A DNA stretch of 64,000 bases from a virus, in the IMG/VR virus record IMGVR_UViG_3300032224_000809, positions 1-64,000 of that record. One strand, 5' to 3'. Under the pieces are notes generated by a model. It was not told the origin of the DNA. It saw nothing but the letters and a program-made list of their open reading frames with translations, and did not search any database. Below, one piece after another: positions 7,153 through 47,304 of this stretch (within the stretch, counting starts at the first letter, position 1; each line of letters opens with the position of its first letter). Both the position numbers and the translations under genes were made by a program.

Positions 7153-7253
7153 TGCCAGTAATTAAAGTTTCTGAAAATAAAAAGAATCTCCCTTCCGTAA
7201 TTAAAATAACATACCAATCTGGAAAGTCACAAACTTTTAAGGTTAAAAAATAA
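7152..7253 (+). CDS. Hypothetical basic micro-protein, 33 aa
   Basis: MPVIKVSENKKNLPSVIK... lies between two structural genes with TAATG overlaps at both ends, which makes it likely to be translated. It is rich in Lys with a strand-turn-strand pattern. No function can be assigned. Confidence 0.5.
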   Translation: MPVIKVSENKKNLPSVIKITYQSGKSQTFKVKK

Positions 7254-7948
7254 TGGCGTTAAGCAGAAGCACAGATTTTCCAGGTAGCAGAAAAACAAAT
7301 TATGCTGATCAAGTTCAGCAATCACAAGAAATAGGTTCTATAGACAGCAGCCTTTATATACCAGTTCAAGGTCCACAGGGACCCGCAGGACCTAGGGGAT
7401 TAGACGGCCAGGTGGGCCCACAGGGACCCGCAGGAGTTCAAGGTGAACGTGGACCAGCAGGCAAGGATGGAAAGTCTTTATTTGCCGATGGGTGGGCCAA
7501 TTACGATAATAGAAACTCTATAAACTTTTCACTTGGAGCAACACGGGGAGACGATGGTTGGGTAGATGTTTATGTTGATGCTCTGGGTAAAGGAACAAAT
7601 GAAAAATATTTGCCTAAAGATAACATAAGTTTATACAATCCAGAAACTCGTAGAATTAACTTAAAACATTTAGACATTGGGTCACAACTTAGAATTACAT
7701 ATACTTTTGATTTATCGACATATGGAAATAATACTGAGGTTTGGGCAAGATCCTATTTCCCAGATACTGGAAAAGCCGTTACAAGTTTTGTTGCAAACCT
7801 TAAATACCAATATGACTATGAACTGTCAACAACCCACTTGCTATACTTAGATGATAGCGTAGACAAGTCAAGTGGTATAGTTCCACAACTAAGAGCAGAC
7901 CTAGACTCCATGGCAGTATTGAAATCAATCTATCTTTCAACGTTCTAG
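7253..7948 (+). CDS. Collagen-like tail fibre protein
   Basis: A 231-aa protein. Residues about 40-75 are twelve uninterrupted Gly-X-Y triplets (GPQ GPA GPR GLD ... GPA GKD), expected to form a collagen triple helix. The C-terminal 150 residues form a beta-rich domain probably located at the fibre tip. Several triplets have Pro in the Y or X position (GPA, GPR). Collagen-like stalks are common in phage fibres. Five Fe(II)/2OG dioxygenases in the same cassette make proline hydroxylation of this stalk conceivable, though nothing here proves it. Confidence 0.8.
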   Translation: MALSRSTDFPGSRKTNYADQVQQSQEIGSIDSSLYIPVQGPQGPAGPRGLDGQVGPQGPAGVQGERGPAGKDGKSLFADGWANYDNRNSINFSLGATRGDDGWVDVYVDALGKGTNEKYLPKDNISLYNPETRRINLKHLDIGSQLRITYTFDLSTYGNNTEVWARSYFPDTGKAVTSFVANLKYQYDYELSTTHLLYLDDSVDKSSGIVPQLRADLDSMAVLKSIYLSTF

Positions 7949-10032: not shown

Positions 10033-11412
10033 ATGCTGACCACACTAGGGCTATTTGGAAAAGGTATGGTATCAGTACCATCTTTAGTTGGTTTGTCAAA
10101 AACAGAAGCAGAGTTGACAATAACCGCAGCAGGATTGATTATTGGAAGTTCTGCATCAACAGATACAAATACACAGGCAGATAATTTAAAACTTTTTTCA
10201 CAAAATCCACCAAGTGGAACTGAGGTTGATTATGAAACCTCTGTTAGTTTTACTTATAAAACTTATGTTGCTCCAGTTATTAATACAATTAATACAATTA
10301 ATACAATTGATACTATTAACACAATAAATACTATCAACACTATTGCAACAATTAATACAATTAATACTATCGATACAATTAATACAGGACCACAGCCATG
10401 CTGCCAAGATGATGATGCTGGCTATTGTGTCAATGTGGGTTCAGATGGATATGGAACATGGATGCAATATCAATACGATCCATGTACTGCAAGTTCTTGT
10501 CCAGCAAGAAGCATGGGCAGAACATTCTGTGGAGTTCCTAACACAATTAACACAATTAACACAATTAACACAATTAACACAATTGATACAATTAACACAA
10601 TTAACACAATTAACACAATTAACACAATTAATGTGTGCTTGTCAGATGAAATTCCATCAGGAACTGCCTATCGTGCAGAGTGTTGTGGATATGCAGTTAG
10701 AGTTAAGGTTATAGGTTGCTCTGGAACACAAATTGGAACAGCATACTATTGCATTGATTCATGTGCAACTATCGATACTATCAACACTATTAACACTATT
10801 AACACAATTAACACAATCAATACAATCAACACTATTAACACTATCAACACTATTAACACTATCAACACTATTAACACTATCAACACTATTAACACTATTA
10901 ACACTATTAACACTATTGCTACTGGTGGATTCAGTGCTGGATGTTTGCTATACGAAACACCAATTTTGCTTGCCGACAGAACATATAAAAATATTGAAGA
11001 TTTAGAAGTTGGAGATGAACTACTTTCTTTAAATATTTTATCTATACCAGATGAAGAATATCCTACAATACTAGAGTCTTGGAGATCAGATAACATTGAT
11101 GATTCTGTTTTTACAACAACATTTGTAACAGATATAAAGAAAGCAACAAATCCAGGTTATTATTTATTAAATAATAAATTAAAGGTTACCTATGAGCATA
11201 CAATGTTAGTAAAAAGATCCGATGTTTGGATGTTTGTTTCTATGGAGCACGTTGTTGTTGGAGATTATATGGTTGATAGTGAAGGCGATACTATTCGTGT
11301 AGACTCTATTGATTATGATGACTCTGTTGTTAATGTTATTTCTATTGATACAGAAGTAAAAGATATGTATTTTGCAGCAGATATCTTAGTTCACAATATG
11401 TATGCAAAATAA
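10033..11412 (+). CDS. PASTA + INT-repeat + Cys-rich + C-terminal Hint domain protein
   Basis: A 459-aa mosaic. Residues about 13-76 fit a PASTA domain (VPSLVGLSKTEAE...QNPPSGTEVDYETSVSF). Three blocks of strict Ile-Asn-Thr tripeptides follow (about 82-118, 170-200 and 247-297), separated by two Cys-rich islands with several CC or CxxC pairs. The last ~150 residues, from GC-LLYETPILLADRTYKNIE, are a Hint (hedgehog/intein) domain: first-residue Cys, block-B-like T-Y-E-H, and terminal 'FAADILVHN'. The residue after HN is Met, so there is no nucleophile for protein splicing; cleavage or transfer at the N-terminal Cys is more likely. Two dioxygenase genes follow at once. Probably a tail-surface protein. 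Confidence 0.8.
   Translation: MLTTLGLFGKGMVSVPSLVGLSKTEAELTITAAGLIIGSSASTDTNTQADNLKLFSQNPPSGTEVDYETSVSFTYKTYVAPVINTINTINTIDTINTINTINTIATINTINTIDTINTGPQPCCQDDDAGYCVNVGSDGYGTWMQYQYDPCTASSCPARSMGRTFCGVPNTINTINTINTINTIDTINTINTINTINTINVCLSDEIPSGTAYRAECCGYAVRVKVIGCSGTQIGTAYYCIDSCATIDTINTINTINTINTINTINTINTINTINTINTINTINTINTINTINTIATGGFSAGCLLYETPILLADRTYKNIEDLEVGDELLSLNILSIPDEEYPTILESWRSDNIDDSVFTTTFVTDIKKATNPGYYLLNNKLKVTYEHTMLVKRSDVWMFVSMEHVVVGDYMVDSEGDTIRVDSIDYDDSVVNVISIDTEVKDMYFAADILVHNMYAK
10282..10387 (+). repeat. 9-bp tandem repeat, INT block 1
   Basis: Tandem units close to ACAATTAAT encode Ile-Asn-Thr. Third codon positions vary between units, so the protein repeat is under selection. Confidence 0.85.
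10538..10632 (+). repeat. 9-bp tandem repeat, INT block 2
   Basis: Nearly identical AACACAATT units, about ten copies. DNA identity is high, which suggests recent expansion by slippage or recombination. Confidence 0.85.
10768..10920 (+). repeat. 9-bp tandem repeat, INT block 3
   Basis: About seventeen AACACTATT or AACACTATC units encoding INT. The units differ in codon choice from block 2, so each block has expanded separately. Confidence 0.85.
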
Positions 11413-11413
11413 A

Positions 11414-12001
11414 ATGATAAAGACAGAATACTTTCCTGGGGTAGTTGGATACTCTGGATTAATTCCAGAATCTATTGGTTATGTTGAAGATATTGTTGAT
11501 CTTGCAAATAAAGAACTTATATCTTGGCATAAAACAACAACTGGTCGTGGCAATGTAAATGCTGCAACAGTGATACCAGAATTGCGTCAAGGCTCAGTTA
11601 TTGGTCTTAATGGAATTAGTAAAGAAGAAAAAGTATTTTTGGCGGTATCTACTTTAAAAAATGCAGCAAATCTTGCAGTAAAAGAATGTCTTAATGACTA
11701 TCAAAATAGTTATGGATATTTTGATTTAGAAGGAGAAGGTTGGGCCCTATTAAAGTATGAAGTTGGAGATTTTTTTAAATTGCACACAGATGCCTCTAGG
11801 GCATATCCAAGACAAGTATCTACGGTATACTATATTAATGATGACTACCTTGGAGGAGAAATAAATTTTAAATATATAGACTTAGAATTAAAACCAAAAA
11901 AAGATGAGTTTTTAGTTTTTCCATCAACAAACCTATTTTCTCATTATGCAAAAGAAGTGATAGCGGGTACAAAATATTCAATGCCAAACTGGTTTAGATA
12001 A
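11414..12001 (+). CDS. Fe(II)/2-oxoglutarate dioxygenase, prolyl-4-hydroxylase-like (1)
   Basis: 195 aa from the ATG at 11414, 1 nt after the previous stop; an ATG at 11402 is also in frame. The conserved core is present: H-x-D in 'FKLHTDAS', 'STVYYINDDYLGGEINF', the distal His in 'LFSHYAKEV' and a basic 2OG-binding residue in 'GTKYSMPNWF'. These enzymes use O2, Fe(II) and 2-oxoglutarate to hydroxylate side chains, as in prolyl hydroxylases. Its position directly after the INT-Hint protein makes that protein the obvious substrate candidate, by inference only. Confidence 0.85.
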   Translation: MIKTEYFPGVVGYSGLIPESIGYVEDIVDLANKELISWHKTTTGRGNVNAATVIPELRQGSVIGLNGISKEEKVFLAVSTLKNAANLAVKECLNDYQNSYGYFDLEGEGWALLKYEVGDFFKLHTDASRAYPRQVSTVYYINDDYLGGEINFKYIDLELKPKKDEFLVFPSTNLFSHYAKEVIAGTKYSMPNWFR

Positions 12002-12010
12002 GGATAAAAA

Positions 12011-12604
12011 ATGGAAAAAACAATATTAGGTGATAAGATAGTGGTATACCACAATATATCTAAAACCCCAATGGTAATTATTGATGCAGCCAATGAAATC
12101 ACCAATAAATATCCAAATGTTGGATTTAAAAATGCCACAATTAATAATCATCAATATGATACAAGTTTAAGATCTTGTACCGTTTTTAGTTTATTTCCAG
12201 ACAAATCTGATAAGTCACTTGCTGGAGTAAATGCAAGATTAGAAAAGGTAAAACTTAATCAAAAAATAATTAGCCAAACATCCCTTGCATTGATTGATTT
12301 TATTAAAGAATACGGATTCAAGATTATAGAAAGAGAAGCCTGGGAATTGTTATCATATGAAGAAACTCAAAAACTTACCTGGCACTCAGATAATGGAGAT
12401 CCACACCCTTGCCTAGTTTCCCTGGTTTATTATTTAAATGATGACTATGAGGGTGGAGAGGTGGAGTTTAAAGACCATATAGGTACTCCTTTTAAACCCT
12501 CTGCAGGAGATCTTTTGATCTTTCCATCATCAGTAGAATATGTTCATAGGGTTCTTCCAATAACAAGTGGAAGAAAATATGCTGCTATCTCCTTTTGTAA
12601 GTAA
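12011..12604 (+). CDS. Fe(II)/2-oxoglutarate dioxygenase, prolyl-4-hydroxylase-like (2)
   Basis: A 197-aa protein with H-x-D in 'LTWHSDNGD', 'SLVYYLNDDYEGGEVEF', 'AGDLLIFPSSVEYVHRV' (distal His) and 'GRKYAAISF' (2OG-binding basic residue). It is clearly related to the preceding gene and to the enzyme at 24608 in the core, but its N-terminal 100 residues differ, as expected for a separate substrate. It ends 2 nt from the end of the convergent lysin gene. Confidence 0.88.
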   Translation: MEKTILGDKIVVYHNISKTPMVIIDAANEITNKYPNVGFKNATINNHQYDTSLRSCTVFSLFPDKSDKSLAGVNARLEKVKLNQKIISQTSLALIDFIKEYGFKIIEREAWELLSYEETQKLTWHSDNGDPHPCLVSLVYYLNDDYEGGEVEFKDHIGTPFKPSAGDLLIFPSSVEYVHRVLPITSGRKYAAISFCK

Positions 12605-17488: not shown

Positions 17489-18901
17489 ATGGCAACTAGA
17501 ATGCAACAGCGCAGAGGAACTGCAGCCCAATGGACGGCAGCAGATCCAATTTTAGCAGCAGGAGAAATTGGGTTTGAAACAGACACCAGCCAGTTCAAAA
17601 TGGGCGATGGCGTTAATGCATGGTCAACTCTCTCCTACTTTAAGAACTTAGAAGACTTGGGTGGTACTCTTGATGATTACATCCCACTAACCCAAAAGGG
17701 TGCAACCAATGGTGTAGTCCCTCTTGATGGCTCAGGTAAGATTCCAATTGGATACCTTACAAACCTTATTGCAAACGCACCAGAAGCACTTGATACACTT
17801 AAAGAACTTGCAGATGCAGTTACTTATGTTACAAATCAAGTTTCTGGACATAATGGAACAACAACAAATGTTCACGGTATCGCAAATACAGGAGCACTTG
17901 CTACAACTACAGCAGTTACTACAGCAATTGCGACACACGAAGCAGATACAACAAATGTTCACGGAATTGCAGATACATCAGTACTTGAAACAACATCTGG
18001 AGCACAAACTAAGGCCAATGCAGCAGCACTTGCTGAAGTAAATGCTCACAAGGTAATCACAACTTCAGTACACGGAATTGCTGATACAGCACTTCTTGCT
18101 ACAAAGGTATATGCCGATGCAGTAGGAACAACAGAGGCTTCAAGCCGTGCAACAGCAATCTCAACACATAATTCAGCAACAGCAAACGTACACGGAATTT
18201 CTGATACATCTGCTCTTGCTACAAAGACATATGCTGATGGTAATGTTACAACACACAACTCAGCAACAACAAGCGTACACGGAATTGCAGATACTTCACT
18301 TCTTGCAACTAAGTCATACGTAGATACAGCAGATGCTCTTAAGGCAGCGCTTGCATCACCAGCATTCACTGGCACACCAACTGCTCCAACAGCAACAGCA
18401 GGAACAAATACTACACAGGTAGCAACAACAGCGTTCGTAGGAACAGCAGTTTCAGCACTCGTAGCATCTGCTCCAGCAGCACTTGACACACTTAATGAGT
18501 TGGCAGCAGCGCTTGGTAGCGATGCAAACTTCTCAACAACAATGACAAATGCTCTTGCTCTAAAGGCAAGCAAGGCTGAACTTTCAGCAGCAACTGTCGC
18601 ATCATTTAATAACAAGACAACTTCTTACACACCAGTACTTTCAGATGAAGGAAATGTAATTGAAATGGATTCTGCTTCAGCAAATTCTGTTACAATTCCA
18701 CCAAACTCATCAGTAGCATTTACAATTGGTTCATCAATCGATGTATTCCAAAAGGGTACAGGCCAGACAACAATCGTTGCAGGTGCAGGAGTTACAGTTC
18801 TTAATACACCAGGACTCAAGTTCCGTGATCGTTACTCAATGGCAACATTGATCAAGCGTGATACAAATACTTGGATCGTTTCTGGCGACTTGACAGCGTA
18901 A
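17489..18901 (+). CDS. Tail fibre with Mtd-like N-terminal domain, 470 aa
   Basis: It starts 'MATRMQQRRGTAAQWTAADP' and continues 'ILAAGEIGFETDTSQFKMGDG' and 'NAWSTLSYF', the well-known N-terminal domain of phage tropism determinants and fibres (Mtd_N-like). Residues about 60-350 are a repetitive Ala/Thr-rich rod with many 'VHGIADT..LATK.YAD' units. The last ~95 residues match the C-terminal module of the protein at 9373. It is probably a receptor-binding fibre; the two shared C-terminal modules suggest domain swapping. Confidence 0.82.
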   Translation: MATRMQQRRGTAAQWTAADPILAAGEIGFETDTSQFKMGDGVNAWSTLSYFKNLEDLGGTLDDYIPLTQKGATNGVVPLDGSGKIPIGYLTNLIANAPEALDTLKELADAVTYVTNQVSGHNGTTTNVHGIANTGALATTTAVTTAIATHEADTTNVHGIADTSVLETTSGAQTKANAAALAEVNAHKVITTSVHGIADTALLATKVYADAVGTTEASSRATAISTHNSATANVHGISDTSALATKTYADGNVTTHNSATTSVHGIADTSLLATKSYVDTADALKAALASPAFTGTPTAPTATAGTNTTQVATTAFVGTAVSALVASAPAALDTLNELAAALGSDANFSTTMTNALALKASKAELSAATVASFNNKTTSYTPVLSDEGNVIEMDSASANSVTIPPNSSVAFTIGSSIDVFQKGTGQTTIVAGAGVTVLNTPGLKFRDRYSMATLIKRDTNTWIVSGDLTA

Positions 18902-18932: not shown

Positions 18933-20288
18933 ATGGCAACTATTCGTAGAGGTGGTAAAGCAGGTAAATCTGCTAAGGCTGCAGTAAGTTTTTGGGGAGT
19001 AGCCCCAGGGCAACCTTACATCGTAAGCGTAGTCCCAGGTTTTGGTGGAGCATATTTCTCATCAACAGCCGTGATTACATTCAATAAGAATGCTATGGGT
19101 GCCACTCCTTCTTCTTATACAATTTTCGCTAACTCAGTATATGGAACTACTACATTCACAGCAACGTCTTCACCATTTACAGTTACAGGTTTAAGAGCAG
19201 GTACAGCATACGCATTCACAATTCTTGCAAATGCTCCAGTTGGTCAGGCAGCAACAGCAACAACATCTGTAGCGTCTTCACAGAGTAACGCAGATATAAA
19301 GTCTGTTCCTGATGCTCCAACAGGAGTTACAGCATCATCACCATCAGGTGCAACATATGACACAGTGTCATGGTCAGCACCAGCAGATAACGGTGGAGAA
19401 GCAATTACTAACTATCAGATTGAATCTTCTGACGGAAAGTCTGCTACAGTAAATGCTCTTACAACAAATATTGCACAAGAAGCAGGAACAGCACAGACAT
19501 ACCGTGTTAGAGCCTACAATGCTCAGGGTTGGTCAGAATGGTCTGCATGGTCAGCATCTGTTACAACATTCTCATTTGTGCCGTTCTCAGTATTCGGATT
19601 CTCCCCATTCGGAGTATTTGGATTCTCACCATTCGGCGTGTTCGGATTCTCTCCATTCGGATTCTCTCCGTTCGGTGTATTCGGATTCTCTCCGTTCGGT
19701 GTATTTGGGTTCTCACCATTTGGTTTCTCACCATTCGGAGTATTTGGATTCTCACCATTCGGTGTATTCGGATTCTCTCCAGGAGGAGGATGTATTGCTC
19801 CTGATACACTAGTATCAGTTGTTGGTCCAGAAGACACATACATTCAGATTCCTGCAAAGGATGTTGTTACTGGACAAGAAGTATGGGCACACTCATTTGA
19901 TGAAATGATAGATGAAACTGTTGCTGATCCAATGACACTTGCTTTTGATAAATTGACAAACCAAGCAATTGTTAAGACAAACGTTGCATCTGTTGTTGAA
20001 AAAGAAATGCCAGCAACATTGACAATTAACGGGGACTCAACAAAGAAGTATTCAACTGTACAGGGAATTCTATATAAGCGTAATGGAATCTATGGATACA
20101 TTAGTACAGGACTTCTAGAAGTTGGAGACTATGTAATGGAATATGATTACAATTTTCATGCTTTCAATGAGATTCTAGTAACATCAATTGAAATTGATGA
20201 AACTCCATCAACAGTTTATAAGTTTGACATGGAACCAGCAGATACATTTATTGCTGGAAACATGGTAGTACACAATCGTAAGTCATGA
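18933..20288 (+). CDS. Fibronectin-III + FG-repeat + C-terminal Hint domain protein, 451 aa
   Basis: A basic N-terminus (RRGGKAGKSAK) leads to two fibronectin type III-like domains (about 28-118 and 125-212; 'APTGVTASSPSG', 'ITNYQIESSDG', 'YRVRAYNAQGWSEWS'). Residues about 213-283 are strict repeats of the units FSPFG and VFG, a Phe/Gly-rich tract resembling nucleoporin FG sequence. After GGG comes C-IAPDTLVSVVG, the start of a ~165-residue Hint domain that ends 'FIAGNMVVHN' plus RKS. The block B position reads T-V-Q-G, lacking the usual His, so catalysis may be impaired or use another residue. Probably a tail-surface protein; GGAGA precedes the ATG. Confidence 0.8.
   Translation: MATIRRGGKAGKSAKAAVSFWGVAPGQPYIVSVVPGFGGAYFSSTAVITFNKNAMGATPSSYTIFANSVYGTTTFTATSSPFTVTGLRAGTAYAFTILANAPVGQAATATTSVASSQSNADIKSVPDAPTGVTASSPSGATYDTVSWSAPADNGGEAITNYQIESSDGKSATVNALTTNIAQEAGTAQTYRVRAYNAQGWSEWSAWSASVTTFSFVPFSVFGFSPFGVFGFSPFGVFGFSPFGFSPFGVFGFSPFGVFGFSPFGFSPFGVFGFSPFGVFGFSPGGGCIAPDTLVSVVGPEDTYIQIPAKDVVTGQEVWAHSFDEMIDETVADPMTLAFDKLTNQAIVKTNVASVVEKEMPATLTINGDSTKKYSTVQGILYKRNGIYGYISTGLLEVGDYVMEYDYNFHAFNEILVTSIEIDETPSTVYKFDMEPADTFIAGNMVVHNRKS
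19577..19786 (+). repeat. Tandem repeat encoding FSPFGVFG units
   Basis: Roughly ten units of 15 or 24 bp close to GGATTCTCTCCATTC plus GGTGTATTC. Silent differences between units show selection for the peptide. The mix of short (FSPFG) and long (FSPFGVFG) units makes a higher-order pattern. Confidence 0.85.
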
Positions 20289-20293
20289 TGTAA

Positions 20294-21010
20294 TTGCTTT
20301 ACCATCATCATGCGCCAAGGACTTCAGGCCTATTCATTAGATCTGCGGTCCATTTGGCTTTTCAGACCAATAAACTAAAATCAGCAATTGTTTATCATGA
20401 TAGGGCCATTAGTCCAGACATGTTTAAAGATGTTGAGTTTATTTCTGGACACTTAGGGAACTATCCTAATCTATTTATTAAAGATTTAAAATCTTTTACA
20501 ATATTAAGAGATCCAGTTGAGAGGTTTATTAGTTGGTTCTTTTTCATGTATGAAAACTCCAGAAGTTTTGAGGAACTTGAAAAAATATTTGACCAGTGGC
20601 TATATAACCCAGAGATATATCCATACCTTTCAGACATGCAAACAAAATTTTTGACGGGAACTGTAGATGAAGCAGGATTTAACAGCACTAAAAGCATAAT
20701 GGATAAAACCATGAATGAGTGGTTTCTTAAAGATTATTCGTTTGATGAGTCAGTAATGCAGGACAAAGTTGACTCTATTGGTTGTTATACAGTGGAGACC
20801 AGAGATATACTATTAGATGACATAATTAGGTATATGGGTAAAACATATGGCTTTGTCCCAAACTTTCAGCACAGACATATGATGTTTAACTCAAGCACAT
20901 CTAAAAGGTTTGACATAACTGATAAAATGATTAACAGGATTAAAGAACTAAACCAGCATGATATAATTTTATATGAGATGGCAAAAAAGTCTAATCCAAA
21001 GCCACTTTAA
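20294..21010 (+). CDS. P-loop sulfotransferase-like enzyme, 238 aa
   Basis: It starts at TTG (20294), the only start before the motif; TAA lies directly upstream in frame. 'YHHHAPRTSGLFIRSAVH' matches the 5'-phosphosulfate loop (H.PKTGGT..R) of PAPS-dependent sulfotransferases, and 'KSFTILRDPVERFISWFFFMY' matches the 3'-phosphate motif (LRDPVERF.S). The family moves sulfate from PAPS to sugars or tyrosine. The phage has no visible PAPS synthesis genes, so host PAPS would be used. It lies between the FG-Hint protein and two dioxygenases, which suggests modification of virion proteins or of the host surface. Confidence 0.78.
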   Translation: MLYHHHAPRTSGLFIRSAVHLAFQTNKLKSAIVYHDRAISPDMFKDVEFISGHLGNYPNLFIKDLKSFTILRDPVERFISWFFFMYENSRSFEELEKIFDQWLYNPEIYPYLSDMQTKFLTGTVDEAGFNSTKSIMDKTMNEWFLKDYSFDESVMQDKVDSIGCYTVETRDILLDDIIRYMGKTYGFVPNFQHRHMMFNSSTSKRFDITDKMINRIKELNQHDIILYEMAKKSNPKPL

Positions 21011-21050: not shown

Positions 21051-21716
21051 ATGAACATGAATCAATATCCAACCGATATTCAGAGTGTGAGCAAGTCCAC
21101 TCAGCCACATAAGTTTTTTGAAAGATATCTTAACAATAACCTATCGGTCCTAGCATCAGAACTACAGGATAGATATGAAAAGATTGAAAAAGCAAAAGTT
21201 GTAGGCGTAACTCCAGTAGGTGCTAACGAAGCCTGGAAGCAGTCAAATAGTGTATCAACAATGAAGTGGAGACAGTATAATGTTTTCCAATTCCACTCAA
21301 CTGGTATTTATAATTTGTACAAATCGGTAAAAGATATGACAATTGAAGCATGCGACTACTACGGTATTGATTTTGAAAAAGAAAAGTTTATGCTTCAGGG
21401 ATGGTTTAATATTACTCATGCTGGTAAGGGTAAACTTGATTGGCATGATCATGGTCCAACTGGTGCTCCAAACTTTCATGGGTACTACTCTGTAAGTGCA
21501 GAGCCTTCAATTACCTACTACAAGGTTTTTGATAAGGAGATTGAGAATCATAACAAGAATGATCGTGCAATCCTTTCTGAAATGGGGCATCCACACTCTA
21601 TGGCCGATTGGGACTGGGAAGGTCCAAGAATTACAGTTGCCTATGACGTTATTCCATTAAGAGATATTCAAAAGTTTGGAATGGATCAAGAGCAACATTG
21701 GATTCCACTAGCATGA
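21051..21716 (+). CDS. Putative 2OG-Fe(II) oxygenase, second family (1)
   Basis: A 221-aa protein with 'LDWHDHGPTGAPNFHGYYSVSAEPS', 'NDRAILSEMGHPHSMADW' and 'PRITVAYDVIPL'. The order (H-x-H near the first strand, later His, then an R-x-T strand) fits the phage/cyanophage oxygenase family that carries H.H...GYY.V (2OG-FeII_Oxy_5-like). The N-terminal half is helical and ends 'MTIEACDYYGIDFEKEKFMLQGWFN'. The next gene is a paralogue and overlaps by ATGA. Confidence 0.72.
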   Translation: MNMNQYPTDIQSVSKSTQPHKFFERYLNNNLSVLASELQDRYEKIEKAKVVGVTPVGANEAWKQSNSVSTMKWRQYNVFQFHSTGIYNLYKSVKDMTIEACDYYGIDFEKEKFMLQGWFNITHAGKGKLDWHDHGPTGAPNFHGYYSVSAEPSITYYKVFDKEIENHNKNDRAILSEMGHPHSMADWDWEGPRITVAYDVIPLRDIQKFGMDQEQHWIPLA

Positions 21717-22348
21717 TAGCAATGGCAAAACCAAGTCACAAGTTTTTTGAAAGACATTTAAGTCTAGATCTTCCAAAACTCGAAACATCTCTTTTGAGTC
21801 TTAAAGAAAGACTTTCTTCTGAAAATGTTCCAGGGGTAAAAAATAAAGACTATGAGTCAGTAGATAAAGCATCATTTACTACTCAACTAGGAGAGAAGTA
21901 TAATATCTTTCAGTTTCATGATGAGAATATTAGAGCACTTTATTCTTCAATTAGAGACATGGTTTTAGAAGCCTGTGACTACTATGGTATTAATGCTAAA
22001 GATCAAAACTATATGATTCAGGGATGGTTTAATGCTGATAAAAATAGCAAGCCAGAGCCACTACCAAATACATATCTTCATGACCATTTAAACGGTCAAG
22101 GAGCACCAGATTTTCATGGATACTACTGCGTTAATGCAGAGCCTTCATATACAAAGTATATGATTTCAGGAGAGACAGAGTTTTTGAATGTTAATGTTAA
22201 TAACCGTGCAATCCTTTCTGAAACTGGACATGCTCATGGTATTAGCAACTGGCCTTTTGAAAAAGACAGAATCACAATTGCTTATGATGTGTCTCCATTG
22301 CAAAATATGAAAGGCTCACCAGAACAGCATTGGGTTCCAATCCTATGA
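21713..22348 (+). CDS. Putative 2OG-Fe(II) oxygenase, second family (2)
   Basis: 211 aa from the ATG at 21713 (ATGA overlap). It is collinear with the preceding protein: 'PSHKFFERHL', 'EACDYYGINAKDQNYMIQGWFN', 'YLHDHLNGQGAPDFHGYYCV', 'NNRAILSETGHAHGISNWPFEKDRITIAYDV', ending 'EQHWVPIL' versus 'EQHWIPLA'. The tandem duplication with retained metal ligands suggests two related substrates. It ends with an ATGA overlap into the small gene at 22345. Confidence 0.72.
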   Translation: MIAMAKPSHKFFERHLSLDLPKLETSLLSLKERLSSENVPGVKNKDYESVDKASFTTQLGEKYNIFQFHDENIRALYSSIRDMVLEACDYYGINAKDQNYMIQGWFNADKNSKPEPLPNTYLHDHLNGQGAPDFHGYYCVNAEPSYTKYMISGETEFLNVNVNNRAILSETGHAHGISNWPFEKDRITIAYDVSPLQNMKGSPEQHWVPIL

Positions 22349-22577: not shown

Positions 22578-24608
22578 ATGTCAGATTTCTTTAGTTTTAG
22601 GCTTCCAGAAGACTTTGTTGAAAAATATAAAAGCGTTGAAAGCCCTTTTGGCTTTAAAGATGCAGCAGAGAATTCACTTGGAGAGATCACCTTTATCAGG
22701 ACATACTCCAGAATGAAAGAAGATGGAACTAAAGAGCGATGGCACGAAGTTTGTCGTCGAGTAATCGAGGGTATGTATTCAGTTCAAAAGAATCATGCTA
22801 AAGAGAACCGTTTACCCTGGAATGATTATAAGGCTCAGAAATCTGCACAAGAGGCTTTTGATAGAATGTTTAATTTAAAGTGGACTCCACCAGGACGTGG
22901 TATGTGGGCTTTTGGTACTCCCATGGTTATGGAAAAGAAAAATTCAGCAGCACTTCAAAATTGTGCAATGGTTTCAACAAAGGACCTTGACAAAAATGAT
23001 CCAGGGGCTTTGTTTGCTTGGGTTATGGATGCCCTTATGCTTGGTATTGGTGTAGGATTTGATACAGTTGGACAGGATAAGAATTTCTCAATCTATGCCC
23101 CGACAGAACCTGAACAGGTGTTTGAAATTCCAGACACTCGTGAAGGCTGGGTCGAGTCAGTTAGAATTCTTATCAACTCCTATTTAAGAGCAAATCAAAG
23201 TATTCAAAAGTTTAACTACGACCTCATCAGACCCCTTGGTTCGGCCATTAAGGGCTTTGGAGGCGTTGCATCAGGGCCTGCACCTCTTATCAAGTTGCAT
23301 GACCATATAGACCGTGTAATCGGCTCCAGAGCAGGTGAAACACTAGACTCTCGTGCCATTGTAGATTTAGTAAATCTTATTGGTACTTGCGTAGTATCAG
23401 GCAACGTTCGCAGATCCGCAACCCTTGCCTTGGGGAGTGAGGGGGATGAAACATTCATGAACTTAAAGAATTCAGAAATGTTCCCAGAGCGTAATTCATT
23501 TGATTCAGATAATCCAGGATGGGCATGGATGTCTAATAATTCTATTTCAGCAGAAGTAGGAACAAAGTATGAAGACTATGTAGATTTAATTACAGAAAAC
23601 GGAGAACCAGGTTTTATCTGGCTTGACGTTGCTCGTAATTATGGCAGACTAAAGGATGCGCCAGATGGAAAAGACTATCGTGTGATGGGCTTTAATCCAT
23701 GTGCGGAGCAGCCATTAGAGTCTTACGAATTATGTACACTTGTAGAAGTGCATTTAAATCGTCATGACTCTAAGGAGGATTTCCTGCGTACCCTGAAGTT
23801 TGCATACCTATATGGAAAAACTGTAACTCTTGTTCCAACACATTGGCAACAGACAAACGGAATTATGCAACGTAATCGTCGCATTGGTACATCGCTCACA
23901 GGCATTGCATCTTTTGCAGATCTAAAGGGCTTGCCAACAGTTCGTGAATGGATGGATGAGGGATATAACAAAATTCGTCATTACGACAATCAGTATTCTG
24001 AATGGCTATGTGTTCGTGAATCAATTCGTGTAACAACAGTCAAGCCATCAGGATCAGTTTCAATTCTTTCTGGTGCAACTCCTGGAGTTCACTGGGGTCC
24101 TGGAGGAGAGTTCTTCCTTCGTGCTATTCGTTTTGGAAATACAGATCCAATGGTTCATTTGTTTAAAGCAGCGGGATACAAGATTGAAAATGATGTAGTG
24201 TCAGCAAATACATCCGTAGTATATTTCCCAATTAAGTCAGGTCATCCAAGATCTGAAAAAGATGTTACTTTATTTGAGAAGATTGCTCTTGCAGCAACTG
24301 CTCAGAAGTACTGGTCTGATAATGGGGTTTCTGTAACACTTTCATTTGACAAGGAAACAGAGTCAAAGCATGTTGTTCCAGCACTACATATGTACGAGGG
24401 ACAATTAAAGGCAGTATCATTCCTTCCAATGGGAAATCACACATACCCACAACAACCATATACTCAGATCTCTGAACAGGAGTATAATAGTCACGTAGGT
24501 AAGTTAAAGCATATTGACTTTGGGGCAATTTACGATGGTGTAGACAACCTAGAAGCAATGGGCGAGGCATACTGTACAACAGACTACTGCGAGATAAAGG
24601 TGAAATAA
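22578..24608 (+). CDS. Adenosylcobalamin-dependent (class II) ribonucleoside-triphosphate reductase
   Basis: A 676-aa monomeric enzyme of the Lactobacillus RTPR type. It shows the key cysteines: 'ALQNCAMVS', 'GFNPCAEQPLESYELC' (two Cys 11 apart, as in Cys408/Cys419) and the C-terminal redox pair 'AYCTTDYCEIK'. 'TTVKPSGSVSILSGATPGVHWG' is the conserved barrel segment. It reduces NTPs to dNTPs using coenzyme B12 and a thioredoxin-like donor, supplying phage DNA synthesis. The length is close to the usual ~740 aa. Host supply of adenosylcobalamin is implied. It lies far from the replication genes, inside the structural half, with its own promoter. Confidence 0.93.
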   Translation: MSDFFSFRLPEDFVEKYKSVESPFGFKDAAENSLGEITFIRTYSRMKEDGTKERWHEVCRRVIEGMYSVQKNHAKENRLPWNDYKAQKSAQEAFDRMFNLKWTPPGRGMWAFGTPMVMEKKNSAALQNCAMVSTKDLDKNDPGALFAWVMDALMLGIGVGFDTVGQDKNFSIYAPTEPEQVFEIPDTREGWVESVRILINSYLRANQSIQKFNYDLIRPLGSAIKGFGGVASGPAPLIKLHDHIDRVIGSRAGETLDSRAIVDLVNLIGTCVVSGNVRRSATLALGSEGDETFMNLKNSEMFPERNSFDSDNPGWAWMSNNSISAEVGTKYEDYVDLITENGEPGFIWLDVARNYGRLKDAPDGKDYRVMGFNPCAEQPLESYELCTLVEVHLNRHDSKEDFLRTLKFAYLYGKTVTLVPTHWQQTNGIMQRNRRIGTSLTGIASFADLKGLPTVREWMDEGYNKIRHYDNQYSEWLCVRESIRVTTVKPSGSVSILSGATPGVHWGPGGEFFLRAIRFGNTDPMVHLFKAAGYKIENDVVSANTSVVYFPIKSGHPRSEKDVTLFEKIALAATAQKYWSDNGVSVTLSFDKETESKHVVPALHMYEGQLKAVSFLPMGNHTYPQQPYTQISEQEYNSHVGKLKHIDFGAIYDGVDNLEAMGEAYCTTDYCEIKVK

Positions 24609-25138
24609 TGGAGGACTACGTGTCACAGATACATCACATTAAAGGTTTTATGAATGCAGATGATGCTGCAAAGATTTATGATCATGCAAAAAAATTTCCT
24701 GATGGGTTTACAATGCATGGAAATAATGAAAAAGAATTTAAGGTCTATACGTATCATGGAATTGAAGCAAATGATCCAGCAATCTTAGAGTTAATGCAAG
24801 AGTATGCCTTAAAAGTTTATGATCATGTTTTGACAACCTATGGAGAATCTTTTGAACCATTTAATCCTCACAAGACGCATATTGCAAAGTTTGAAGAAGG
24901 TCATGGAATGCATGAGCATTTTGACTCTTCAAGACCAAACGACATAGCCACTCTTGTGTATTTAAATGATGACTATGAAGGTGGAGAAATTTATTTCCCA
25001 GATTATCAAATTTCCATTAAACCAGAGCCAGGAGATTTACTTTGTTTTCCAGATCAGCCTAGATATGTTCATGGGGTAAAAGAAATAATTTCTGGAACAA
25101 GGTTCACAACACCACGTTGGTTTACCCGCATTGTGTGA
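24608..25138 (+). CDS. Fe(II)/2-oxoglutarate dioxygenase, prolyl-4-hydroxylase-like (3)
   Basis: A 176-aa protein coupled to the reductase by TAATG. It has the full core: 'GMHEHFDSSRPND' (H-x-D), 'ATLVYLNDDYEGGEIYF', 'PEPGDLLCFPDQPRYVHGV' (distal His) and 'GTRFTTPRWF' (Arg for 2OG). It is close in core sequence to the enzyme at 12011. The substrate is unknown; the large tail protein downstream is a candidate by position. Confidence 0.9.
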   Translation: MEDYVSQIHHIKGFMNADDAAKIYDHAKKFPDGFTMHGNNEKEFKVYTYHGIEANDPAILELMQEYALKVYDHVLTTYGESFEPFNPHKTHIAKFEEGHGMHEHFDSSRPNDIATLVYLNDDYEGGEIYFPDYQISIKPEPGDLLCFPDQPRYVHGVKEIISGTRFTTPRWFTRIV

Positions 25139-30920: not shown

Positions 30921-32357
30921 ATGGTGAACAGTCTATCTAAAGCCCATTGGAATTCGGATGGGGAAAATCTGCGTCTCTCGATGCCATTCTCAAAAGTTGA
31001 TGAGAATAGAAGAACGGTATCTGGATTTGCATCACTTGATAATATTGACAAGCAGGATGATATTGTAACTGCCGAAGCATCAATGGAAGCATTTGCCAAG
31101 TTTCGTGGGAACATTAGAGAAATGCATCAACCATTAGCAGTAGGCAAAATGATTTCATTTAAAGCAGACAAATATTTTGATCCAGAAACAAAGAAATTTT
31201 ATAATGGAGTCTATGTATCTGCATATGTTTCAAAGGGTGCACAAGATACTTGGGAAAAGGTTCTTGATGGAACACTTCAAGGTTTTTCTATCGGTGGAAA
31301 AATGAATAAATGGGATGATGGTTATGACGAGAAATCGGATAAAGCAATTAGAATTATTAAGCAATATGATTTGGTAGAGTTGAGTCTTGTTGATTCACCA
31401 GCAAATCAATTTGCAAACATTATGTCTGTAGAAAAAGTTGATGGAATAAATGTTATTAAAGCAGACGAAACAGTATTAGAAAATGTATTTTATGATAAAG
31501 AATCTGGTATCGTTATGGTTTCTGAAAATGAAAATGAGTTAAGCCCAACAACAGGAAGTCAAATGGAAAACATAGGATTCGTTGAAAAAACGGATAACGA
31601 AAAGGTAACAATGATAAAATTCTTAGTTGATAGTGCTAAAGGCATTAATACTTCTAAGATTAACAAGGAGGAAAACCTTATGGCAAAATCAACAAAAAAC
31701 ACAGTTGAAGAGATCGTAGAGAAATCTGATATTGCAGTTGAAATAACAGAGGTCGCTCCAGTAGCAGAAAATGAAGTTACAAAGGCTTCAACATGTCCAG
31801 ATTGCGGAAAATCTATGGACGCATGCAAATGCGATTCAAAGGCTGATGCAGCAACATGTCCAGATTGCGGAAAGGCTATGGACGCATGCGAATGTGCTTC
31901 AAAGTCAGATGCAGAAACAGAAAAGGCTGCAAAGCCAAAGGCTGGCGAAGAGTCTGCTGCTCATGAAGGAACTGAATCAACAGATGTTGAAGCAGAAGAA
32001 GACAAGAAGAAGCCTATGGCTCCTAAGTCAGATGTTGTAGAAACAAATGACGGTCTTGAAAAAGCCTTTAGCGATCTAGTAGAAATAGTCAAGTCATTGC
32101 AATCAGAAGTAGAACTTTTAAAGTCTACTAAGGTTGACATTGAAGTGGCACAAAATTCATTTGAAGCAGTTGCAAAAGATATTGCATCAGCAACAAATGT
32201 ATTTAATGAATTTGGAAAGCGTGTAGAACTTGTAGAGCAAGATACTGCATTCCGAAAGTCTGGTGATCTCGGAGAGATTATTCAGGATCAGCCTGAAATG
32301 GTTGAAAAATCCCTATGGGGCGGGAGTTTCCTCAAAACAACCGATCTATTTAAGTAA
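30921..32357 (+). CDS. Prohead protease fused to scaffold-like region, 478 aa
   Basis: Residues about 14-175 form a herpes/HK97-type serine protease: 'RRTVSGFASLDNIDKQDDIV', the catalytic His in 'NIREMHQPLAVG', and the catalytic Ser in 'DLVELSLVDSPANQF'. The rest is acidic and helical, as in scaffold proteins, and carries two near-identical C-x2-C-x6-C-x-C units (about residues 292-331). An in-frame ATG at 31680 with a strong AAGGAGG site should give a separate scaffold protein. The protease matures the capsid by cleaving the scaffold and possibly the capsid N-terminus. Confidence 0.88.
   Translation: MVNSLSKAHWNSDGENLRLSMPFSKVDENRRTVSGFASLDNIDKQDDIVTAEASMEAFAKFRGNIREMHQPLAVGKMISFKADKYFDPETKKFYNGVYVSAYVSKGAQDTWEKVLDGTLQGFSIGGKMNKWDDGYDEKSDKAIRIIKQYDLVELSLVDSPANQFANIMSVEKVDGINVIKADETVLENVFYDKESGIVMVSENENELSPTTGSQMENIGFVEKTDNEKVTMIKFLVDSAKGINTSKINKEENLMAKSTKNTVEEIVEKSDIAVEITEVAPVAENEVTKASTCPDCGKSMDACKCDSKADAATCPDCGKAMDACECASKSDAETEKAAKPKAGEESAAHEGTESTDVEAEEDKKKPMAPKSDVVETNDGLEKAFSDLVEIVKSLQSEVELLKSTKVDIEVAQNSFEAVAKDIASATNVFNEFGKRVELVEQDTAFRKSGDLGEIIQDQPEMVEKSLWGGSFLKTTDLFK
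31680..32357 (+). CDS. Nested in-frame scaffold protein (internal start), 225 aa
   Basis: Within the protease gene, AAGGAGG at 31664-31670 stands 9 nt before ATG at 31680 (MAKSTKNTVEEIVEKSD). Internal start of a scaffold in the same frame as the protease is known from lambda C/Nu3 and similar phages. The product is acidic, with a coiled-coil stretch 'FSDLVEIVKSLQSEVELLKST', and ends with 'MVEKSLWGGSFLKTTDLFK', likely the capsid-binding tail. Confidence 0.7.
   Translation: MAKSTKNTVEEIVEKSDIAVEITEVAPVAENEVTKASTCPDCGKSMDACKCDSKADAATCPDCGKAMDACECASKSDAETEKAAKPKAGEESAAHEGTESTDVEAEEDKKKPMAPKSDVVETNDGLEKAFSDLVEIVKSLQSEVELLKSTKVDIEVAQNSFEAVAKDIASATNVFNEFGKRVELVEQDTAFRKSGDLGEIIQDQPEMVEKSLWGGSFLKTTDLFK
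31791..31916 (+). repeat. 63-bp tandem duplication in the scaffold
   Basis: Two copies (31791-31853, 31854-31916) encode T-CPDCGK-x-MDAC-x-C-x-SK. They differ at about a dozen bases, mainly at their 3' ends. Confidence 0.8.
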
Positions 32358-44700: not shown

Positions 44701-47304
44701 TTACTCAAGAGACTTAAAGAGGTTCGCCTTGCTTCTATAGATGCAGAAGGTGGAATCAAGGCTTTAAATAAGGCACTTCTAGCAGCAAAGAAGGGCGGTA
44801 TTGGAGATGCATATAAGGGTATTAAAGAGCAAATGCTTGACCTTGGAAAGAACTCACAATTCATGGACTTTATTAATGGTCTTGATCCAAAAGAACAAGC
44901 AAAGTTTATGCGTACAGCCAAAGCGGGAACTGGCAAGAATAAAGGTAAAGCAATTGACCCATTCACTGGTAAGGTTATTAAAGATGGAAAAGTTGGAGAT
45001 GTTGTATTTAGTAAGAATGCACAATCAGTAGAGGCTGGACTTAATAAAGCAATCACTGGAGATTTTATTGTTGCACAAAAATCAATCATTAAAAATTTTA
45101 ATGAACAAGAAATTGTAACAAAGAAGTTGGCTGCACTTGGAATGTCTAATACTGAAATTCAACAAGTACTTTCAGATGAAGCAATGACAACAGTTATTGC
45201 CACTGGTAAGATTACAGACAAAGAACTGCAAACAAATATAGCACTAGAAAAACAAAGAGTTGCACGAGAGAAGATTAATGAATTAATTAATACTGGCAAG
45301 GCTGCAATTGAAGAACAAAATAACAATGCAAAGATTCCACAAGTCTTAGAGTTCTTTGCTAAGAATGGCCCAGCCATGTCTCCAAAGGCATTAAACTCTT
45401 TGATCTCAGATCCAAAATCTCTTGCAGCAGCCATCGCAGCAATGGAAGAATATGGAACAGATTCAGAAAAGGCTAAAGAACATGTTGAAGGAATTGTAAA
45501 GGGCCTAGAAGCAGTACAAGCAAATTCAACAATTAAGATTGCACTTGAATATGCAAATTCTGATTTAAAGGGCAAGGCTACAAAGGGTCTTGAGGCTGCA
45601 CAAAAGATTATGAATGTTAGAAAAACTGCATACTCTAACATGTCAATAAACGAATTACGCAAGGCTCAGACATCAGATAACACTGCTCTTGGTGGAAAGG
45701 CTTCTTGGAATGTTGGAGAGGCTGGATATCAAGCAGCAATTTCAAAATCTGGAGCATTAGGTGGCGTGGCTCCAGGAGAAGCAATGATGGGTAAGTCGTT
45801 GGCAAGTATTCAAAAATCTCGTGCATCACTGGCACAAGCAATTGGTGTTGCAACAGCACGAACAAGTGCACTTGAATCACAACTTACAGTAGCCCAGAAT
45901 AAACTTTCTAAAGACTTAGAGGCAAACGCCAAAAAATATGAAGGTTTCATTAAGACACAAGAAGATGATATTAAAAGAAAACAAGACTTTATCAAGAAAA
46001 ACTTTGAAGATCCAGCAAAGGCTTTGGGTGTTGAGTCTAATAAGATTTCAAATGATCTTGCGGTCATGTCTCATGCAGCGGATGAAATTAATAAGAAATA
46101 TGATGCTCAGGCAGAAGCCCTTGCAAATGTTCAGCGTATTAATGAAAACATAATTAGACAACAGCAACAACAATTAGGTCTTGCAGATGCGCTTTCATCT
46201 GGAGACATCGCAGCAGCAGCCAAGGCAGCACAAGATATGAGGGCAGCAGATGCTGCCAACTATGCTGGTGGAGTATCTTCTGCAATGGATCAAGCACGTA
46301 ATAATGAAATTAAAAATCTTAAAAATAGTTCTGGTCAAAATCAAGAGCAATTACAAGAAAGACAATATCAAATTTCTCAAGAATTATTTGCACTTGAAAC
46401 AGACCCACGAAGAGTTGCTGCTGAAAAGGCAATTGAAGATGCACAGGCTTCTATTGCAAAATATCAACAGGATCAAATTGATGAGGCTGCTGCATTACAA
46501 ACTGCATTTGATAAATTAAATGCAACTATAGTTAAACAACTTGCTGATCAAAAAGACATTGTTGACAATTTACAGGCGCAGGATGCACAACTTGCATTAG
46601 AAGAAATATCTGCTCAAGCAGTTGTAGATCAAATTGTTGCTATGGATGACAGTTCTGGTCATACACTTTCAGAGTGGGAAGATATAGTTGCAAAGATGGA
46701 CGAAGGAGACCCGCTAGCAGAAGCGTATGCAGTAGCCATGGAAGCAGCAGCAGATTCAGCGCTAAGCAATAAGCAGAGTTGGGTTTCAATTCTTGACACT
46801 ATGAACAAAATTCCTAAGAGCCTATACACAAAACATGTTTATGATGAAATCCACAATATAACAAACTATGTTACTAACTATGTAACAAGTGTTTCTTCTG
46901 GCTCATCAGGAAGTAGTGGCTCATCAGGAAGTAGTGGCTCATCAGGAAGTGGATCGGGAAGTTCTGGCGGTGGGGGCAGGGGGTCTTCCTATCTTTACTC
47001 ATCTGGTGGTATGATTCCAAGATATTTTGCTAAGGGTGGATTTAATATGTTGCCTATTGGAACTGATACAATTCCAGCAATGTTAAGTCCTGGAGAATTT
47101 GTTGTAAGTAAGTTTGCAGTAGATAACTTTGGAGCAGATAAACTAAAGTCAATAAATTCTGGTAATACAGACCTTGGCTCAGTGTATAATTATAACCTAA
47201 GCGTTAATGTTAAATCTGATGCAAATCCAAATGATATAGCCCAGACAATCATTGAACAAATTAGGCAAGTAGATAATCAAAGAATTAGGAGCAACAGACT
47301 ATAA
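38716..47304 (+). CDS. Tail tape measure protein, 2862 aa
   Basis: The longest gene of the window, starting at GTG (38716) with GAGGTGG upstream. Residues about 200-520 carry the TP901-type core ('FKEMEEATVKFQRVYGDMA', 'AAAGYSGAALTAQVTQATRLAVLGQV', 'KEGGINASEGANALKSGLAAMINPS'). Hydrophobic helices follow near 550-590 and 1330-1390, then long coiled coils. The motif 'GT.D.(V/I)PAML(T/S)PGE.VVSK' occurs twice (about 695 and 2775). A Gly/Ser linker of repeated SGS units lies just before the second. It sets tail length and enters the host at injection. At the usual ~1.5 A per residue the tail would be near 400 nm. Confidence 0.95.
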   Translation: MSDVNANIGIHFDTATALSELRRLQAGLSKFNQSLTQGNIAAENAQKGLNSQLIQSINQTGKFIASQKDVHTSTAAFTSALEKNQLSLKQYFRYTAAATSLNSNVLKNFFAQEKEILQRASKDRVKTLQSQYIQLTNANGQLVKTLQVMPKHLQMTGGAYTDYATRIQMAAQRQQFLNQLLKQGSTQLLNFGKNTQWAGRQLMVGLTIPLTMLGSFAAKTFKEMEEATVKFQRVYGDMATSVAETDKAVAGIKRLASEFTKYGVAVKDTMNMAADAAAAGYSGAALTAQVTQATRLAVLGQVDQQQALETTISLQNAFGISSEQLATKINFLNAVENQTVLSIEDLTIAIPKAAPVVKQLGGSVEDLAFFLTAMKEGGINASEGANALKSGLAAMINPSKKASDMLAGLGINIKGIVNNNAGDLKGTVVGFARALDTLDPLNRAKAIEQMFGKFQFARLSTLFQNITKDGSQASRALGLAGASMEELAILAERETAKIENATGKKFQKAIEDMKVQLMPLGKAFLEAATPIVKFVGNILEKFNNLSDGTKKIITTIVGVVGGLAPVALMAFGLLANGTANVIKFFAMLRGGMAKLNGQSNVLGAGFDYMTQQQIESLAQSNALHTSHQKLIETFNVEAGAANALAAAYGNAASQARALSMSSPGLFNAAPGAAGATSGLSPRKKYAEGVFSVPGSGTGDTVPAMLTPGETVVSKKNTDKYGPLLKAIGNDSVPGYANAGMVGADGQRISFNGQSYEIPNRSTPQSANLALISELSKFSKDVEGVSRVLKMLEAQAKIAGDGFKKLSGETIKTILEQEGVLRNRPKGTSATTYNGENYVFAHGQSPGAPIRDPQELQRLADMATSKTSGVGKHLQSSADAAKAGDPNGYARQFSNFGFMLPEKANKGQMSPTDLASKFGGKDMAVTMAPMYDQYARSMGMSLEEALNNPAVAAQMHTDMQTFASRISSEVSKIPTEFVNDPEFYAAVKQAQSQLGDSVSGMMKQAIADAKATSVVGTFGGEANRGSEGQRISLAGKETALRTELGASSNAKPYRKRNPEFVKASTEISDALDKDLTRAEKQIAQTASPSKRTKKLGQDIGDGLSQGLASKASAVSAQSDKLKKAAKVDTGNKQFYDDINTPDMRDQRQVLKSLDRRRRDGKGSLSSGAGSGGIDKTSATLTLQMGKLSKATGDSLEAQRRHQDNIVTASDLAKATANSSQQIANAADQTANAQQNSSMLADQISKKDREILAEKEKELAALRAKINSSASQSQNLDTRMTKEQALKEASGYAREDGKVFIDPGTGDPMDKKTYNKMKRGMRREKVGKFSGKAAGGLGIATMVAGAVGAPPAVTGALGAASTVASIAPALAGMGPVGWTVAGIAALGAGAYMLNKHFENAAKETAKFVTATSATSDLMKKIGQETGLVGASEIMNKRRGNGLLSGYNEAARKGTMEGEKFMGSATGKELTATYTKNANQNGSEVAAQQFAMQLAAAVSDGTMSADLASQVAYQLGVNLKDSSISMKVDGQLRNLIGPNGEDLTRDPLTVRTRLAVIAGARSGQIVNGLDEALAKGNSGRTEAAALAAAGTNAVEMAQMQADGMARYYEDQLKSLTAQRAATTDKAKQLELDTQIKAMQDKQIAGMETMNRLVSAQIAKQEAFVADKVIGAYTGTAKEDAYFDANKADVKAKYKGTAYEASAQRVLNVGARADEDKSFGSVKAGRVFEAKIQMLMASGQLNPNQMETMLKIFDGNLASMDVALNVGIRKQGATKVAELTSLLSGMKNKTTAQSIVLNMVRKSPAEFDRVGKALALLQASDGLEVDMSAYIDTVGLPGLEKLAKNLDLIEAMKTPITKEAVIQFGKDTLTNMQGVIDNWDYFSKLKDPVQKEAIQTYTTLYDTLIHFENEDARRAWADKMAKDEAGLYGKPGSTEYTTVYNTKFNALTSGTLNDPAAAAKLAFDMDQAKYGKDPVIASKPAGPATDTGSGNKPADPYADLLKRLKEVRLASIDAEGGIKALNKALLAAKKGGIGDAYKGIKEQMLDLGKNSQFMDFINGLDPKEQAKFMRTAKAGTGKNKGKAIDPFTGKVIKDGKVGDVVFSKNAQSVEAGLNKAITGDFIVAQKSIIKNFNEQEIVTKKLAALGMSNTEIQQVLSDEAMTTVIATGKITDKELQTNIALEKQRVAREKINELINTGKAAIEEQNNNAKIPQVLEFFAKNGPAMSPKALNSLISDPKSLAAAIAAMEEYGTDSEKAKEHVEGIVKGLEAVQANSTIKIALEYANSDLKGKATKGLEAAQKIMNVRKTAYSNMSINELRKAQTSDNTALGGKASWNVGEAGYQAAISKSGALGGVAPGEAMMGKSLASIQKSRASLAQAIGVATARTSALESQLTVAQNKLSKDLEANAKKYEGFIKTQEDDIKRKQDFIKKNFEDPAKALGVESNKISNDLAVMSHAADEINKKYDAQAEALANVQRINENIIRQQQQQLGLADALSSGDIAAAAKAAQDMRAADAANYAGGVSSAMDQARNNEIKNLKNSSGQNQEQLQERQYQISQELFALETDPRRVAAEKAIEDAQASIAKYQQDQIDEAAALQTAFDKLNATIVKQLADQKDIVDNLQAQDAQLALEEISAQAVVDQIVAMDDSSGHTLSEWEDIVAKMDEGDPLAEAYAVAMEAAADSALSNKQSWVSILDTMNKIPKSLYTKHVYDEIHNITNYVTNYVTSVSSGSSGSSGSSGSSGSSGSGSGSSGGGGRGSSYLYSSGGMIPRYFAKGGFNMLPIGTDTIPAMLSPGEFVVSKFAVDNFGADKLKSINSGNTDLGSVYNYNLSVNVKSDANPNDIAQTIIEQIRQVDNQRIRSNRL
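46900..46985 (+). repeat. Gly/Ser linker repeat in tape measure gene
   Basis: Tandem GGCTCATCAGGAAGTAGT units encode a repeated (SGSSGS)n linker joining the coiled-coil body to the C-terminal domain. Confidence 0.75.

Follow-up and report, generated by a model that had tools for sequence, protein, structure and literature searches.

A conserved phenylalanine-repeat C-terminal tail, with or without a Hint domain, on putative appendage proteins of uncultured phages

The FG domains of nucleoporins are 500–700 residues long and show selection against Val, and shortening of the spacers in Nup98 variants increases cohesion (PMC9918544). BIL domains are auto-cleaving and occur as A and B types (PMC7765530). 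Among phages, Hint domains are found in Phage NCTB and in the Erwinia phages pEa_SNUABM_5 and _33, jumbo phages in which the N-termini ahead of the Hint are collagen-like or Ig-like; the NCTB Hint follows a Gly-rich linker, and the NCTB and Erwinia Hints all end in HN plus a short tail. In the NCTB sequence (L137, 1–6468), three adjoining tail-region genes carry Hint-type sequence, two of them as a C-terminal Hint after Gly-rich linkers. Phage appendage proteins with FN3/Ig-like or PASTA domains (PF00041, PF03793) are also described from tail clusters. Furthermore, phage spikes carry a C-terminal autocleaved chaperone domain (Peptidase_S74).

Here, a gene is described from 64,000 nucleotides of virus DNA (positions 1 to 64,000 of IMG/VR record IMGVR_UViG_3300032224_000809; this whole stretch is called the window) that encodes a 451-aa protein (Table 1). 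The protein consists of a basic N-terminus, two FN3 domains, a Phe-repeat tract and a Hint domain, in this order, and the ATG of its ORF is preceded by AAGGAG, which resembles a ribosome-binding site. The FN3 neighbour of the repeat, already named in the first-pass annotation, was recovered by Pfam as PF00041 (E=1.5e-12, 48 bits against a cut-off of 25, best stretch residues 127–207). The same part of the protein matches a PHROG minor tail protein (E=7.8e-10) and forms confident beta structure in the AlphaFold model. Tail-fibre genes lie upstream of the gene, and portal, protease, capsid and tape-measure genes lie downstream; from this gene context and the PHROG match through FN3, the product would be a tail protein in the virion. 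Other repeats of the window are a 63-nt tandem repeat of 2.1 copies within the head maturation protease gene (31789–31919) and, close to where the tape-measure gene ends, a perfect 18-nt tandem repeat (46899–46950).

Table 1. Features of the window around the Phe-repeat gene and its putative partner
Feature	Coordinates	Strand	Evidence
Partner protein: PASTA, (INT)n, Hint ending VHN-MYAK	10033..11412	+	PF03793 E=9.2e-7
Tail-fibre-like gene just upstream	17489..18901	+	Mtd_N PF18454 E=5e-13; PHROG 2631 tail fiber E=7e-33
451-aa protein	18933..20288	+	ORF; PF00041; AlphaFold model; 68 related loci
Two FN3-type beta domains (residues about 30–212)	19020..19568	+	Pfam, PHROG, model
Phe-repeat tract (residues 213–286), units VFGFSPFG and FSPFG, end SPGGG	19569..19790	+	
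Predicted Hint (bacterial intein-like) domain (residues 287–451)	19791..20285	+	Profile, AlphaFold, Foldseek
Sulfotransferase-like gene	20294..21010	+	PF03567 E=1.8e-5
Conserved 221-aa neighbour gene, motifs WH[DE]HG and GHxH...RIT.AYD	21051..21716	+	
Paralogue of the 21051 gene	21698..22348	+	ORF list; same pair in relatives
2OG-Fe(II) oxygenase, prolyl-hydroxylase-like	24608..25138	+	PF13640 E=6.8e-11

The tract reads FSFVPF SVFGFSPFGVFGFSPFGVFGFSPFGFSPFGVFGFSPFGVFGFSPFGFSPFGVFGFSPFGVFGFSP GGG. In the first-pass annotation, it was placed at 19577–19786 and said to consist only of FSPFG and VFG units without charge. The repeat is indeed present on the + strand within a few codons of that position, and none of its 74 residues is charged, while the unit description needs revision: the tract starts with FSFVPFSVFG and then uses 8-mers, VFGFSPFG, and 5-mers, FSPFG. 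Tandem Repeats Finder describes the DNA as 3.0 copies of a 63-nt unit (21 codons, 8+8+5; score 282). The composition is F27 G18 S11 P10 V8, that is, 36% Phe and 11% Val, with one Phe per 2.7 residues. In a codon comparison with one relative (L002), 19 synonymous and no nonsynonymous differences were found in the tract. Against another (L010), pS is 0.64 and pN 0.021, whereas pN of the same pair is 0.36 in FN3 and 0.41 in Hint; synonymous sites of the tract are near saturation, and nonsynonymous change is about 2% versus 36–41% in the flanks. Because silent changes have occurred with the peptide kept, the tract is held by selection, which bears out and strengthens the first-pass statement of a preserved peptide despite silent changes, and by the substitution pattern its peptide is under extreme purifying selection, stronger than that on the adjoining folded domains. 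In the full-length AlphaFold model, residues 226–284 have pLDDT below 50, which suggests that this segment has no stable fold as a monomer.

The repeat had been called nucleoporin-like. Like the FG nucleoporins, such as Nup98 and Nsp1, the tract has Phe-Gly motifs and charge depletion, and by its low pLDDT it may also be disordered; the compositional part of this comparison stands: a selected Phe/Gly sequence is located on an FN3 phage protein in a tail-fibre cluster. It departs from them in having Phe every 2–3 residues rather than one FG per about 12, and in being short (74 residues), Val-rich (8 Val) and free of spacers; there is no homology, and nuclear transport is not applicable. An assignment as a nucleoporin FG domain was thus rejected on spacing, length and Val. 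Since shorter spacers raise cohesion in Nup98 variants (PMC9918544), the tract might, by extrapolation only, show extreme cohesion instead of behaving as a selective gel.

Directly after the GGG of the tract, Cys287 (Cys1) opens a domain of 165 residues that ends in VHN-RKS. This domain was absent from the first-pass annotation. Its single-sequence matches are weak (PDB BIL domain, E=0.21; Pfam intein, E=0.014). When 32 relatives were combined in a profile, the Pho RadA intein was matched with E=1.3e-7. The AlphaFold model of the domain has a pLDDT of 89.2, and Foldseek aligns it with BIL2 and the RadA and DnaB inteins (E about 1e-7) and with Hedgehog (E=4.7e-5). On the profile and predicted-fold matches, residues 287–451 are a Hint domain of the bacterial intein-like type. 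Three classes are found among the relatives: class a, to which the window belongs, has Cys1, Gln in block B and HN; class b has Cys1, TxEH in block B and an HNK end; and class c has Ser1, His in block B and an HD end. Block B of the window reads YSTVQGIL, with Gln where inteins have His, and therefore lacks the T-x-x-H of inteins. A splicing intein has Cys, Ser or Thr at +1 of the C-extein. Here the +1 residue is Arg in the window, and the HN relatives have one of R, L, Y, P, M or K, so extein ligation and ordinary splicing are not expected. N-terminal cleavage by the class a Hint is plausible but not assured, because Gln replaces the His of block B.

The window Hint resembles A-type BIL domains in fold, Cys1, C-terminal His-Asn, absence of a +1 nucleophile, absence of a homing endonuclease and placement in a variable surface-type protein. 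It differs from BIL domains in its location at the very C-terminus of a phage structural-type protein, after a repeat tract, and in the block B Gln of its class; its cleavage is predicted. With NCTB and the two Erwinia phages it shares the C-terminal position, Cys1 and the tail-fibre cluster, whereas their proteins have no Phe tract. As in the Peptidase_S74 spikes, the C-terminal domain is expected to be removed by self-cleavage, but the fold is unrelated, and the segment ahead of the putative cut is here a low-complexity tract.

Loci collected by relatedness (68) and through the neighbour gene (80) gave 86 distinct tract proteins, all of them on metagenomic virus contigs, which are fragments. 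The first-pass annotation had proposed a search for other phage proteins with this repeat and an inspection of repeat number in relatives; copy number differs between relatives, and the tract is kept in many homologues. The tract is followed by Hint in 44 of the 86 proteins and is the protein end in 42, and no third arrangement was seen. Its length has a median of 64 aa (range 22–147), and the units differ by lineage, for example, FSPFG, FTPFG, FVPTF, FFGVF and FTPFNFVPF, with a constant Phe rhythm: the Phe-Phe spacing is 2 or 3 in 1925 of 2063 intervals. Ahead of this same tail, FN3, PASTA, tail-fibre-like and other N-termini are found. On the neighbour-gene tree, class b Hint forms one clade, and the absence of Hint requires at least three changes by well supported branches, most simply six. 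Judged from this tree, Hint is repeatedly gained and lost while the tract persists. In one locus (L054, 2305–3637), a frame change inside the tract breaks the gene, and Hint continues in another frame; this break may come from an error of assembly, from slippage or from a genuine loss.

Searches of Pfam, PHROG and NCBIfam gave no family for the Phe tail itself. Across 84,980 species genomes of bacteria and archaea, the tract pattern has six matches, none of them in a comparable protein, and thus no host source of the tract was found. An F-rich control pattern, FFPFFGFF, retrieved short unrelated frames only; therefore, Phe-rich chance ORFs do not explain the tract family. Among 50,697 named phages, the tract plus FN3 gave FN3 matches only, all in Streptomyces phages, and the window Hint alone matched nothing; queries with Hints of the other classes retrieved Phage NCTB and the Erwinia phages, without the Phe tract. 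In the open-access literature, no paper on Hint domains or Phe tails of phage tail proteins was found. From these comparisons, the Phe tail is a widespread, undescribed tail module of phages that probably infect actinobacteria. The hosts are probably actinobacteria because WhiB genes are present in some tract contigs (7 of 27); in the window, a WhiB-like match lies below the cut-off.

Several neighbouring genes accompany the tract. In 11 of 13 class a loci and in none of 56 others, the FN3 gene is immediately followed by the sulfotransferase gene, and Hint of class a and this gene seem, from their joint distribution, to move as a mobile cassette joined at the tract end. The 21051-type gene matched nothing in Pfam or PDB; together with its paralogue it forms a well conserved pair with invariant His/Trp motifs (WH[DE]HG, GHxH, RIT.AYD) that falls into no known family. 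In every testable locus, a Phe-tract protein lies ahead of this gene; the exceptions are two contig ends and one frame-broken tract, and in four loci the tract gene is further upstream. Its HxH...H...R pattern is suggestive of a 2OG-Fe(II) oxygenase, but there is no Pfam match and none to PF13759 at its position. The virus has three 2OG-Fe(II) oxygenase genes, at 11402–12604 and 24608–25138. The 24608 type has the same relative place in many relatives, and PF13640 genes occur in 25 of 27 tract contigs versus 0 of 20 control contigs from unrelated viruses. This co-occurrence on contigs is a lead only towards a possible hydroxylation of the tract by the neighbouring oxygenases: a collagen-like gene at 7253–7948 would be a more natural substrate, and attempts to identify the immediate neighbour gene as an oxygenase did not succeed.

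Many genomes encode a second protein, mostly PASTA-type (PF03793), 7–11 kb upstream of the FN3 protein, and the C-termini of the two proteins are alike: they share TPTF[SA]VFGFR in G048, FNFAPWG in G051 and SAAF inserts in G016. The shared ends may include Hint, as with FTPFG plus class c in G014 and YGVKCI plus class b in G008. In 10 genomes, same-genome pairs are more similar than permuted pairs in the last ten residues and in 5-mers (permutation p about 1e-5). The two proteins also agree in Hint in 17/17 genomes, 10 of which have it on both and 7 of which lack it on both (p=5e-5, not corrected for kinship, as shared ancestry was considered only where the tree was used); in three further genomes, the FN3 protein alone was seen. 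In the window, the repeat of the partner is not Phe-rich but (INT)n, encoded by 9-nt tandem arrays at 10279–10917, and its Hint class differs from that of the FN3 protein; partners in other Hint genomes have PTP, PVV or PVT repeats. FN3 and PASTA domains on tail-cluster proteins agree with the known phage appendages, from which these proteins differ by the added Phe tail and the matching C-terminal modules on a protein pair.

Tentatively, and at somewhat less than even confidence, the Phe tract may be taken as a C-terminal attachment tail common to a pair of appendage proteins and processed by Hint in some lineages. The FN3 or PASTA domains would be the exposed part of a host-facing appendage, and the tract, a dense row of Phe stickers, would dock non-covalently to its own copies or to a shared virion partner, so that the two appendage proteins of one phage would be placed via C-termini of one kind. 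In lineages like that of the window, translation would yield a precursor in which the tract is joined to a Hint domain. Cleavage by Hint is predicted at Cys1 (FSPGGG|C), through a thioester followed by hydrolysis or amine capture, and would leave the tract as the mature C-terminus or linked to a partner. In this scheme the docking role, the actual cleavage, the fate of the thioester and the virion location are all inferred. The position of the tract in the 86 proteins, always C-terminal or pre-Hint, fits such a tail, as do its persistence on the tree while Hint changes, its occurrence behind diverse N-termini, the matched ends and Hint agreement within genomes, and the retention of Cys1 and His-Asn in classes a and b and of block B TxxH in class b. 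Other points speak against it. Gene conversion between tract genes could give matching ends without shared binding, and the repeats of the partners in Hint genomes mean that a Phe tract is not needed for Hint action. With the Gln of class a and the Ser1 and His-Asp of class c, cleavage may differ or be absent.

If the tract follows the usual outward orientation of C-termini in phage fibres, it would be a distal adhesive. In this alternative, considered possible but doubtful, the tract forms the distal end of the appendage and adheres to the host envelope, and FN3/PASTA serves as a stalk or wall binder; the sticky coat imagined in the first-pass annotation is one version of it. In its favour, the N-terminus is the usual attachment end of fibre proteins, PASTA and FN3 are typical cell-contact modules, the cluster adjoins tail fibres, and the tract is hydrophobic as well as uncharged. 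However, the peptide is extremely conserved while FN3 diverges, unlike receptor-binding tips, and simple adhesion does not predict matched ends on two proteins per genome. As the most conserved part of the protein, the tract is more in keeping with binding to itself or to an invariant partner than with a variable receptor-binding tip. On conservation and matched ends, we favour binding of the tail to itself or to a virion partner over binding to the host surface.

An elaboration of the attachment tail, which is rather unlikely in its full form, is that an FN3-type and PASTA-type surface pair is placed by a genome-specific C-terminal code of mutually recognising Phe tails, with Hint replacing or completing the code in some lineages by activating the tail end for covalent fixing. 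Slightly less probable still is a condensate or amyloid-like glue, in which the tracts of many copies stack via Phe contacts like a very cohesive FG phase. The dense, regular and, in the window, uncharged Phe tract is predicted to be disordered, paired proteins have the same tract type, and the cohesion of Nup98 variants rises with shorter spacers and with FSFG motifs (PMC9918544), all of which would suit a glue; but at a median of 64 aa the tract in the 86 proteins is short and far denser than FG domains, and it could equally well form insoluble aggregates or a selective gel.

Covalent ligation is an improbable alternative, in which an amine of the virion or the cell surface attacks the Hint thioester at the tract end, Hint being a built-in activator as in Hedgehog or BUBL-type BIL. 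Cys1 directly follows a flexible GGG or similar end, the fold matches BIL2 of the Tetrahymena BUBL locus as well as Hedgehog, and +1 has no Cys, Ser or Thr. Yet many close relatives have a free tract end without Hint, plain hydrolysis explains as much, and no acceptor is known. Finally, a functionless low-complexity expansion spread by slippage and recombination, as the tandem repeat, its differing copy number among relatives and the frame break in the L054 tract might suggest, is hardly credible because it is contradicted by the substitution pattern, with peptide, unit order and Phe spacing kept at near-saturated silent change.

The Phe tail is among the most constrained sequences of its proteins and is present in scores of uncultured viruses, yet has no family in the databases searched. 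Provided that the tail serves for docking or self-association, it would be a short, regular, natural Phe-repeat peptide for testing aromatic cohesion, and would offer a reason why phage tail-region proteins retain Hint. With matched ends on two proteins of a single genome, docking can be tested directly. If the C-terminal code is true, phage appendages would be assembled in a new manner that parallels the sorting signals of bacterial surface proteins.
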